The position numbers were made by a program, and so were the translations under genes. Shown here in pieces: positions 4,330 to 6,187 of a stretch of DNA of 64,000 nucleotides. The notes beneath the pieces were generated by a model. It did not search any database. It saw only the letters and a list, made by a program, of their open reading frames with translations, and was not told where the DNA came from. The DNA comes from Roseicyclus marinus. Its GTDB lineage: Bacteria; Pseudomonadota; Alphaproteobacteria; Rhodobacterales; Rhodobacteraceae. The stretch is taken from assembly GCF_036322625.1 (NCBI RefSeq), contig NZ_AP027266.1:3227001-3291000 (forward strand). Reading direction: 5' to 3'. Positions within the stretch are counted from its first letter, which is position 1. Each line of letters begins with the position of its first letter.

Positions 4330-4953
4330 ATGAATACCAAGTACTTGCCGGGCATCCTGGCGATGGCTGCCGTTGTCCTGGCCTCGAATATCCTCGTTCA
4401 ATTCCTGTTCGGGAATTGGCTGACATGGGGCGCGTTCACCTATCCTTTGGCCTTTCTCGTCACCGATGTGATGAACCGGGTTTACGGCGTGCAGGCCGCG
4501 CGGCGCGTTGTTTTTGTTGGGTTTTTGGTCGGCGTCGGATGCTCGCTGATCGGCACGCAGATCATGGGCGAGTTCGGGCCGCTGGTCACGTTGCGCATCG
4601 CCGTGGGATCGGGGATCGCGTTTTTGACCGCGCAGCTCCTGGACGTGGCGATCTTCGACCGGCTCAGGAACGGGGCCTGGTGGCAAGCGCCTGTTTTTTC
4701 GAGCATAATCGGCTCGTCCATCGATACGGCGCTGTTTTTCTCCATCGCCTTTAGCGGAACGTTAACGTGGCTCGAGCCCGGTAACGATGTGTCCTGGGCG
4801 GGGGAGATGGTGCCGCTGTTGGGCTGGGGTCCTGTCGCGCCCTTGTGGGTGTCGCTGGCGGTGGCGGATTGGGGCGTCAAGCTGGCCATCGCCATGGTCG
4901 CGCTGATCCCGTTCCGGTTGCTCACGCGGAAATTCGTGGCACAGGTTGCGTGA
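4330..4953 (+). CDS. Queuosine precursor transporter family protein (VUT/YhhQ)
   Basis: 207-residue inner-membrane protein of the VUT family; E. coli YhhQ of this family imports queuosine precursors used in tRNA modification. About six hydrophobic segments are visible, beginning with YLPGILAMAAVVLASNILVQ at residues 5-24. Family-typical features include TYPLAFLVTDVMNRVYG near residue 39, with its charged Asp-Asn-Arg group inside the membrane region, and FSSIIGSSIDTALFFSIAF near 120. The 79 bases upstream contain no riboswitch I can support. No tgt, queA or other queuosine genes are in the window. Confidence 0.82.
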   Translation: MNTKYLPGILAMAAVVLASNILVQFLFGNWLTWGAFTYPLAFLVTDVMNRVYGVQAARRVVFVGFLVGVGCSLIGTQIMGEFGPLVTLRIAVGSGIAFLTAQLLDVAIFDRLRNGAWWQAPVFSSIIGSSIDTALFFSIAFSGTLTWLEPGNDVSWAGEMVPLLGWGPVAPLWVSLAVADWGVKLAIAMVALIPFRLLTRKFVAQVA

Positions 4954-4959
4954 ATTGTT

Positions 4960-4965
4960 TTGACA
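4960..4965 (+). promoter_or_regulatory. Candidate -35 element (TTGACA) for the small RNA at 4990-5180
   Basis: A perfect TTGACA lies 7 bases after the stop of the transporter gene. The corresponding -10 region (about 4982-4988) is weak, reading close to CAGGCT, which is not unusual for GC-rich alphaproteobacteria. It would start a transcript near 4993-4998, just ahead of the extended Shine-Dalgarno. This is inference from position and the -35 match only. Confidence 0.4.
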
Positions 4966-5023
4966 ACCGCAAAATCTGTGGCAGGCTGGACGTAACAGCA
5001 ACCAAGCGAAAGGAGGTGATCCA

Positions 5024-5080
5024 GTGTCTAGAAGGGTATTGGAGAACGGTGTCGGGACAGCTTGGGAGGTGCGCGCCTGA
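5024..5080 (+). CDS. Candidate 18-residue peptide or leader ORF
   Basis: Reading from GTG at 5024 gives MSRRVLENGVGTAWEVRA and a TGA at 5078-5080. It is preceded by an almost maximal Shine-Dalgarno whose GGAGG ends seven bases before the start codon. The peptide is too short for domain assignment and I recognise no family. It may be a translated leader that senses ribosome availability, a small protein, or only a by-product of an RNA that binds 16S rRNA. The overlapping frame without a start codon continues through from the transporter side to 5096. Conservation of the peptide at codon level would be the deciding evidence. Confidence 0.4.
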   Translation: MSRRVLENGVGTAWEVRA

Positions 5081-5150
5081 GGCAATCCTCGGGTGAATTC
5101 GCCCTTGCAAGGTTGGTTAAGTCCTAACCGGACCGCCTCCTGATCTTTCG

Positions 5151-5180
5151 AAAGGGCCGCCCCTTGGGGTGGCCCTTTTT
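5151..5180 (+). terminator. Strong intrinsic terminator
   Basis: AAGGGCCGCCCC pairs with GGGGTGGCCCTT across a TT loop, a 12-pair stem with one G-U pair, followed by a run of T. It ends the candidate small RNA and separates it from arfB. Confidence 0.85.
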
Positions 5181-5261
5181 CGTTGGCCGGAGCCCTGCAT
5201 AGGGTTTCCGTCGTGACACGGTAGTGATTGTGTAGGGCATCCGTAGCTACAGGCGCCCGAC

Positions 5262-5681
5262 ATGCCGCTGAGCATCACAGACACGATCACGCTGGCCGAT
5301 TGGGAGATGACGGAGAGCTTTACCCGCTCCTCCGGGCCCGGTGGGCAGAACGTGAACAAGGTGTCGACAGCGGTCGAATTGCGGTTCGAGGCGGAACGGT
5401 CCCCGCATCTGCCCGATCCGGTCAAACGGCGGCTCAGGCGGCTGGCCGGGCGGCGCTGGACCAAGGAGGGGGCGGTGGTGATCCAGGTGGAGGAGACCCG
5501 GTCCCAGGCCCGCAACCGGGAGATCGCGCGGGAGCGGTTGGCCGAGCTGGTGCGCGCGGCGCTGGTCGCGCCCAAGGTGCGGCGGGCGACGCGGCCGACC
5601 AAGGGGTCGGTGGAACGGCGGATCAAGGCGAAAAAGGTGCGCGGCGAGGTGAAGGCGGGGCGGGGGAAGGTGGAGGAGTAG
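5262..5681 (+). CDS. arfB: Alternative ribosome-rescue factor / peptidyl-tRNA hydrolase ArfB
   Basis: 139-residue ArfB (YaeJ/ICT1) protein. It has the release-factor GGQ motif at residues 27-29 in SSGPGGQNVNKV, the catalytic element that hydrolyses peptidyl-tRNA, and a long basic C-terminal tail (KVRRATRPTKGSVERRIKAKK...) that in the family inserts into the empty mRNA channel of stalled ribosomes. Length and layout match ArfB rather than a full release factor, which would have codon-recognition domains. It acts without tmRNA. Its TAG stop is the first triplet of a palindromic repeat that begins at 5679. Confidence 0.95.
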   Translation: MPLSITDTITLADWEMTESFTRSSGPGGQNVNKVSTAVELRFEAERSPHLPDPVKRRLRRLAGRRWTKEGAVVIQVEETRSQARNREIARERLAELVRAALVAPKVRRATRPTKGSVERRIKAKKVRGEVKAGRGKVEE

Positions 5682-6102
5682 GGTGGGCAATTTGCCCACC
5701 ACGCGCGCGGGTGGTGGACGGTTTTGTGGGCGACGGTTTGGTGGCGGCGGTTTGGTGGCGGGGGTTTGGTGGGCAGGATTGCCCACCCTACGCCGCGAGG
5801 TGGGCCGGGGTTGCGGCGGGCCTTGGCGGGGAGCCATGTGGTGGGCTCAAGCGAGGATGCGGCGGCGGTGACGGTGGTGGGGGGGGGGATGTATCGGGGC
5901 GTGGATGCGGCGGTGTAGGGTGGGCAATTTGCCCACCATGCGCGCGGGTGGTTGGCGGGAATGGTGGGTTGCACCCACCACGCAGCGCGGGTGGTGGGGC
6001 CGGTTTGGTGGGCAGGATTGCCCACCCTACGGTGCCGGGCTGAAGCCCGGCCTACGGGGTGTGGTGTAGAGGCTCACAATGGTGGGGTGGAACCCCACCC
6101 TA
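5679..6102. repeat. Cluster of palindromic intergenic repeats ending in CCTAC
   Basis: This 500-base gap between arfB and the gene at 6188 has no credible gene. It holds several imperfect palindromes of a common style. TAGGGTGGGCAATTTGCCCA begins copies at 5679 and 5916, each continued by a similar GCGCGCGGGTGG tract. GGTGGGCAGGATTGCCCACC occurs at 5768 and 6007, GCCGGGCTGAAGCCCGGC near 6035, and GGTGGGGTGGAACCCCACC near 6080. Most units start with GTAGGG or end with CCCTAC. More members lie at 35493-35587 and 38851-38874. They resemble the REP-like palindromes common in proteobacteria. Spacing is irregular, so this is not a CRISPR. Confidence 0.75.
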
Positions 6103-6187
6103 CGCTTGCTCCTTAAAGTTAGGTAAGTATTTGCTTGAACTTTCATTTATATACGTTTCATCATAATCAGGACGAACTTTCTCACTG

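Follow-up and report, generated by a model that had tools for sequence, protein, structure and literature searches.

CC2171 (Rfam RF01867), of which Landt 2008 is reportedly the founding paper, is entered in Rfam as a small RNA (entry type: Gene; sRNA) of unknown function. The mentions located in the literature were in tables only, one of structure improvements (PMC11701678) and one giving RF01867 as the predicted sRNA MH_s33 of Mesorhizobium huakuii (PMC5596092), as far as the accessible portions of these texts extend. No description of a 16S rRNA complement or of an open reading frame (ORF) in CC2171 was found in the partly accessible literature searched, with subscription papers mostly outside it.

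Three other kinds of systems bear comparison with the RNA described here, which lies in a window of 64 kb (the whole stretch of Roseicyclus marinus DNA that was analysed). Dual-function or coding sRNAs such as rnTrpL/peTrpL of S. meliloti, Spot 42 and Pos19 of R. sphaeroides likewise carry a short ORF on a small transcript, according to the excerpts available. Of 54 small ORFs newly found to be translated in S. meliloti, 33% were on annotated sRNAs, and rnTrpL carries an ORF of 14 codons (PMC10117765, partial text). However, rnTrpL is leaderless and tied to trpE, whereas the window's RNA has a near-maximal Shine-Dalgarno (SD) sequence and is not followed by a constant gene, and what seems to be kept in it is the length of the ORF, not the peptide. 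Pairing between SD-type and anti-SD-type sRNAs is described in Alphaproteobacteria for the CrfA sponge and SisA-D (alpha-R8/MmgR) (PMC12559287, partial text); unlike these, the window's RNA has a complement that extends over the 16S-specific GATCC half, and its match to suhB/MmgR was not significant (16.3 bits, cut-off 41). A sponge for MmgR/SisA-type sRNAs was set aside as a candidate, only the short GGAGG core being expected to pair. Extended SD motifs of Staphylococcus aureus also lengthen SD pairing towards the start codon and occur with uORFs; in the part of the text available (PMC13009471) they serve mRNAs in general, while here the motif belongs to a small RNA that stands by itself and matches once in almost all carrier genomes.

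Relation to the CC2171 family

At Rfam gathering cut-offs, only a tRNA was reported in the window. Under permissive settings, positions 5000-5176 aligned with RF01867 over the complete model (1-159 of 159; 47.0 bits, E = 6.2e-9), and the whole genome held one match (E = 1.4e-8). An earlier note, made from the letters alone, had offered no named family for this RNA, which the full-length alignment contradicts. It had also named a match to a known family as something that would speak against its reading, and such a match exists in part: the alignment is significant, and its score falls below the RF01867 gathering cut-off of 75 bits.

The window's RNA is like RF01867 in its 5' block CAACAANCGAAAGGAGGUGAUCCAGUGUCU, its overall length, its intergenic position and its 3' terminator hairpin, and the 5' block of the model with GAAAGGAGGUGAUCC and GUGUCU is present in the alignment. 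The closing helix of the family, CAUUGUC/GACAAUG, is not kept, its letters being largely replaced and several pairs non-standard; in its place, the RNAs of the window's group pair GGAGGUG with CRCCUCC. A further difference is that an anti-SD locks the SD of the window's RNA, an arrangement that does not hold for the class in general.

The RF01867 model matched 41 of 61 genomes (the window's own and relatives) at E <= 0.01, one of them above the cut-off, and 74 of 372 genomes of the class (>=90% completeness requested) at E <= 1e-4, 13 of them above it. The cut-off was also passed by 5 of 17 hand-chosen loci of the wider class. Only Caulobacter vibrioides matched among 14 control genomes at E <= 1e-4; Deinobacterium chartae matched at E <= 0.01, which was taken as chance. 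Sequence matches in 40 of the 61 genomes include terminator-only matches and are not a count of the RNA. Judged by sequence, the window's RNA is real and conserved, a variant that has diverged within a known RNA family. A joint reading, in which it is separately transcribed with a predicted length of ~180-190 nt, represents the CC2171 small RNA in a Rhodobacteraceae-type form, and is gated as proposed below, is held tentatively, as somewhat more probably wrong than right.

Table 1. Features of the RNA and its neighbours (positions in the window)
Feature	Position	Strand	Remarks
Candidate -35 element TTGACA	4960-4965	+	Read in sequence; putative promoter
17-nt complement of 16S rRNA 3' tail	5008-5024	+	SD GGAGG inside
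18-codon ORF	5024-5080	+	GTG 5024-5026, TGA 5078-5080
Hairpin around start codon	5020-5043	+	Arms 5020-5029 and 5034-5043
Short helix, 5' side	5053-5055	+	CGG with CCG of TAACCG at 5128-5130
Core helix, 5' side	5058-5066	+	Partner about 5107-5115; covarying
Core helix, 3' side	5107-5115	+	Covariation
Built-in anti-SD	5130-5140	+	Core 5134-5140 with 5012-5018; to 5022 with one mismatch
Intrinsic terminator hairpin and T-run	~5150-5181	+	Sequence reading and fold
Queuosine-precursor transporter gene (yhhQ/VUT family)	4330-4953	+	TIGR00697; usual upstream neighbour in group
arfB, alternative ribosome-rescue hydrolase	5262-5681	+	NF006718; frequent downstream neighbour

The unit that the earlier note had outlined, with its own TTGACA, a strong terminator and two adjacent ribosome-rescue genes, was recovered in part (Table 1). 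The hexamer is in place and the TTGA core columns of this candidate -35 element are common to at least 25 of 28 aligned rows, but a promoter scan found no promoter-like consensus pair. The closing terminator stands as a hairpin with a T-run; it was missing from the list of a simple terminator scan, and a loose scan without control found terminator-like hairpins behind 66 of 69 class relatives. Of the two rescue genes, arfB is adjacent and smpB (935-1474) lies 3.5 kb from the RNA.

Complement of the 16S rRNA tail

Positions 5008-5024 read GAAAGGAGGTGATCCAG and are complementary to CUGGAUCACCUCCUUUC in the 16S 3' region of S. meliloti, which bears out the 17-base complement claimed earlier; this complement presumably spans nearly the whole tail past the last 16S helix. 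The S. meliloti region was taken from a 39-mer starting GGCUGGAUCACCUCCUUUCUAAGG in an oligonucleotide table (PMC6943124, partial text), and with this tail as reference we infer that the match holds for the rRNA of Roseicyclus marinus itself. The next longest match to the 16S tail elsewhere in the window was 11 nt. The 13-mer AAGGAGGTGATCC occurs three times in the 3.55-Mb genome, the other two sites being in stretches that read as coding, which we take to be glgC and rarA.

The motif AAAGGAGGTGATCCARTGTC, with one mismatch allowed, was found in 69 of 385 genomes of the class, and its reversed control in none. In a named collection, the exact 21-mer was present at at least 120 loci, of which 80 entered the main ORF analysis and the other 40 the analysis of neighbours and ORF length; 76 of the 80 are labelled as Alphaproteobacteria or subgroups and 4 as unplaced Proteobacteria/Pseudomonadota. 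Besides the stretch complementary to 16S rRNA, flanks are shared (CAAC before it and TGTCT after the start), so that common descent appears likelier than convergence on the 16S tail. Class-wide, a start codon comes at a constant distance after the block and nearly always opens an ORF of 14-36 codons.

Some carriers depart from the usual arrangement. Genome G048 has two different copies of the element (L087 and L088), with ORFs of 24 and 18 codons, and genomes G314, G619 and G626 have two family-model matches each. At six loci (L038, L100, L101, L142, L166, L175), the block is followed by an ORF of 55-59 aa that has a Cys-to-His motif and begins like a signal peptide. These loci represent either the usual unit in a longer form or a second gene family that uses this start. 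At one of the 40 further loci (L213), it precedes a 104-codon ORF with a hydrophobic stretch, by resemblance possibly a conjugation-type membrane protein, which indicates that ordinary genes, too, can make use of the block.

An ORF of fixed length

The 18-residue ORF that had been read from within the 16S match is present in full, with 18 codons from its GTG start up to a TGA stop. Its start was compared across a set that BLAST or the covariance model had found: 78 loci, which came to 74 distinct elements once duplicates and one locus with no block located were taken out. Counting one base on from the 15-nt block, the codon was GTG in 48 and ATG in 23, and the start was shifted by one base in 3. 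A frame-0 ORF of 14-36 codons was found in 71 of the 74 (other frames: 20/74 and 29/73), in a set not wholly free of start-codon bias since the covariance model contains GUGUCU. In the pattern-found set, the corresponding counts were 139/145 in frame 0, and 51/145 and 39/144 in the other frames. The 69 class loci gave 65 ORFs of 14-36 codons, three of 55-56 and one that runs off its contig; the 40 further 21-mer loci gave 39 of 14-31 codons and one of 104.

The window's group comprises 58 loci, 57 of them distinct (L015 = L124): 37 were obtained by BLAST or genome family and 21 are named loci picked for an 18-codon VSR-type ORF, so that ORF counts over all 58 are biased (18 codons in 56/58; 52/52 distinct ORFs). 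Within the 37 loci not selected by ORF, 35 had exactly 18 codons and the others 26 and 31, with codon 19 being TGA in 19, TAA in 8, TAG in 8 and another codon in 2. A tree of 33 of these 37 required 8 changes among stop codons and none to TGG (Fisher p = 0.003, relatedness ignored); a tree of 53, including 20 distinct ORF-picked loci, required 16 changes among stops.

Between start and stop, the three codon positions varied equally (entropies 0.88/0.92/0.90). Synonymous changes in frame 0 were slightly above chance (fraction 0.364, expected 0.285), as they were in frame 1 (0.339, expected 0.251), and frame 2 gave 0.214 (expected 0.248). Taken together, the even entropies and the synonymous fractions suggest that the peptide itself is hardly selected, and a selected peptide function was left unsupported by the codon analysis. 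We take this pattern to mean that initiation, a set running distance and termination are under selection, the intervening sequence apparently being constrained as RNA.

A 14-codon form was seen at nine loci, mostly labelled Bradyrhizobium (L076, L123, L129, L133, L134, L146, L155, L157, L170), where ten codons are identical, including GCTGGGATC, a segment resembling the 16S tail. This 10-codon stretch is identical in nucleotides, third positions included, while the stop varies, which points to constraint on the RNA.

A conserved ORF with start and stop, by which coding or dual-function sRNAs are recognised, is present in the window's RNA and its relatives, and it bears on two other accounts of the locus. 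The RNA could be a conventional non-coding sRNA, with an SD-like block that pairs anti-SD-type sRNAs or mRNAs and an ORF that is incidental. RF01867 is indeed filed as Gene; sRNA, and in Caulobacter CrfA acts as a sponge for SisA-D, which have in common a 10-mer bearing an anti-SD signature (PMC12559287, partial text). A ribosome-profiling study, whose accessible text leaves CC2171 unnamed, states that Caulobacter ncRNA regions are untranslated (PMC4117421), which also counts against the translation-gated reading set out below. Yet a sponge of the CCUCC type leaves the conserved GATCC half of the block unexplained, and a non-coding RNA accounts neither for the start codon at fixed spacing nor for the kept ORF length and stop; we consider this account unlikely.

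Alternatively, the transcript might be an ordinary small mRNA that has an unusually strong SD and encodes a peptide with a function of its own. The ORF is kept, the window's group conserves its V-G-T core, and the few relatives with signal-peptide-like products of 55-59 aa or the 104-codon ORF use the same start block. On the other hand, no excess constraint by codon position was found, peptides differ between clades, and the Bradyrhizobium-type identity extends to third positions, as RNA constraint would have it. A functional peptide is likewise improbable.

Conserved structure and the SD lock

The predicted fold of the RNA is more stable than expected (z = -4.04; 0 of 200 shuffles as stable). 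In a tool alignment of 53 sequences of the group, paired cells amounted to 98.4% for the SD helix, 95.4% for the start-codon hairpin and 96.2% for the TAACCG helix. The three helices together reached 96.6%, against 95.5% with 3' letters shuffled among sequences and 45-53% with the partners slid. Both the structured RNA and the built-in anti-SD proposed earlier are upheld by these values, the latter also in the window, where 10 of the 11 positions of GGACCGCCTCC (5130-5140) form pairs with 5012-5022, including one G-U pair.

All seven pairs of the SD-anti-SD core, GGAGGTG / C[AG]C[CT]TCC, were kept in 49 of 52 rows, and the partner was unlocated in 5 more; among the 37 loci not selected by ORF, they were kept in 30 of 32, with 5 unlocated. 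These analyses left out one locus without a located SD block (L263), the 5 rows without a located partner and the duplicate L124; L265 and L267-L269 were left out of the structure alignments, and L027 was placed with a 1-nt shift. Covariation was strong in the core helix, where 403 of 474 cells were paired and 79 were changed on both sides, compared with a maximum of 35 in 300 shuffles. The start-codon hairpin had three pairs with changes on both sides. In the SD helix, 400 of 424 cells were paired and shuffles also gave 400, which makes the shuffle control uninformative; the SD side is invariant over the seven core positions, with no two-sided changes, which leaves no room for the compensatory changes that the earlier note had named as a check, and the partner varies almost only in ways that keep the pairs.

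Median predicted unpaired probabilities in the window's group were 0.01 for the SD and 0.03 for the start codon (shuffled: 0.34 and 0.44; n=56), whereas in the rest of the class the SD was unpaired at 0.40 (shuffled: 0.32; n=136). The lock is therefore specific to the window's group. Self-locking of the SD throughout the class was rejected, the SD outside the group being more open than in shuffles. Some ORFs outside the group contain 16S-like partner segments, and the duplex test gave p <= 0.05 in 21 of 131. Within the group, single-sequence duplex energies were only moderately better than shuffles (p <= 0.05 in 19 of 56), and the case for the lock is built on its conserved position, the 7-pair core, helix conservation and predicted closure. 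Since the long 16S complement is found class-wide without the lock, its origin does not lie in opening that lock.

A possible gating by 30S subunits

The state of the RNA may be set by ribosome loading, through binding of the 30S subunit, the likeliest of the readings weighed here, though one that we regard as possible rather than probable. In such a scheme, a free 30S subunit would capture the SD during transcription, before the anti-SD at 5134-5140 is made. The energy of the long 16S duplex would open the start hairpin, and one or a few rounds of translation of the 18 codons would keep the RNA open; if no 30S arrived, the anti-SD would close the SD. Alternatively, the 30S might open the RNA later, after its synthesis. 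The open and closed forms would differ in stability or in the segments able to reach targets, such that the RNA would report or buffer free, initiation-ready ribosomes. The output might be a target in trans, titration of 30S subunits, or transcription that reads through into arfB. In line with the earlier note, the RNA may sense or titrate free 30S subunits.

In silico, the SD stayed about half open until transcript end 5136 and was closed by 5141, and the duplex with the 16S tail was calculated at -35.2 kcal/mol, compared with 9.5 to open the site. These values suggest that a 30S could catch the nascent RNA or open it later. The near-full complement of the tail, the ORF of fixed length, the stop kept while codons drift, the hidden SD and start codon, and the covariation all count for gating. 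Against it, the long complement also occurs in relatives that lack the lock, and the start-codon hairpin is predicted to form early (unpaired 0.03 by transcript end 5051) and might keep ribosomes from initiating while the anti-SD has yet to be made. The gating model would fit the anatomy of the RNA, and on folding calculations, whose thermodynamics ignore ribosomes and kinetics, we place it a little short of an even chance.

What appears new at this locus, from comparison of sequences, is an ORF of fixed length behind a near-complete complement of the 16S tail, together with a group-specific lock beside arfB. If members of CC2171 were small mRNAs in which translation, not the product, is kept, the family would have been read wrongly so far, and its function could then be approached in a straightforward way that lends itself to testing. 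If an RNA did sense free 30S subunits via the 16S tail, gene control would be coupled to ribosome supply in a new manner, and any link with ribosome rescue would first be sought in the locked form beside arfB. In its widest form, CC2171 would be a class-wide sensor of free mature 30S subunits via the 16S tail, its length-fixed ORF setting the conformation with a largely dispensable peptide, and Rhodobacteraceae would have added the lock, a mimic of the 16S tail, beside a rescue gene; this generalisation we find doubtful.

Neighbouring genes

Searches with the window's proteins (tblastn) placed the transporter gene just upstream of the RNA in 54 of the group's 57 distinct loci; in 43, arfB started no more than 700 nt downstream on the same strand. 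In 4 more group loci, arfB was at 743-1138 nt, and for L139, one of the 14 without arfB within 700 nt, 242 nt of downstream sequence were covered. Nine further loci of the window's kind, among the 40, had both the transporter and arfB (9/9). Outside the group (168 loci, 146 distinct), the transporter was nearby in none and arfB in three, divergently.

This distribution bears on the switchable leader that had been suggested earlier. The RNA could be a cis-acting leader of arfB, in which translation of the 18 codons would determine whether transcription ends at 5150-5181 or continues into the rescue gene, in a feedback that responds to stalled ribosomes. An intrinsic terminator does lie between the RNA and arfB, which follows within 700 nt in the 43 group loci and the nine further ones and is also a divergent neighbour at the three loci outside the group. 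The suggestion is nevertheless weakened, since arfB starts beyond 700 nt or is absent in 14 of 57 loci while the transporter stays in 54. The constant downstream gene expected of an attenuator was thus not found, and in the 69 class loci no downstream gene recurred beyond close relatives (top 25 clusters). In single-sequence folds, no antiterminator exclusive of the terminator was seen. We rate a leader of arfB as quite unlikely. A chance resemblance without function, for which nothing speaks beyond the general frequency of GC-rich hairpins, is refuted by conservation (28 conserved loci, family-model matches in 74 of 372 genomes of the class, covariation) and deserves almost no credence.

The three loci outside the group are L062, L127 and L168, and two of these carry the label Hyphomonadaceae. 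Their arfB genes are upstream of the RNA and point away from it, a hint that arfB and the RNA have been linked for longer. Downstream of arfB in the window, positions 5672-6115 hold imperfect repeats with GTAGGGTGGGCAATTTGCCCACC as their basis, present in either orientation, a cluster which we take to resemble REP-type intergenic repeats.
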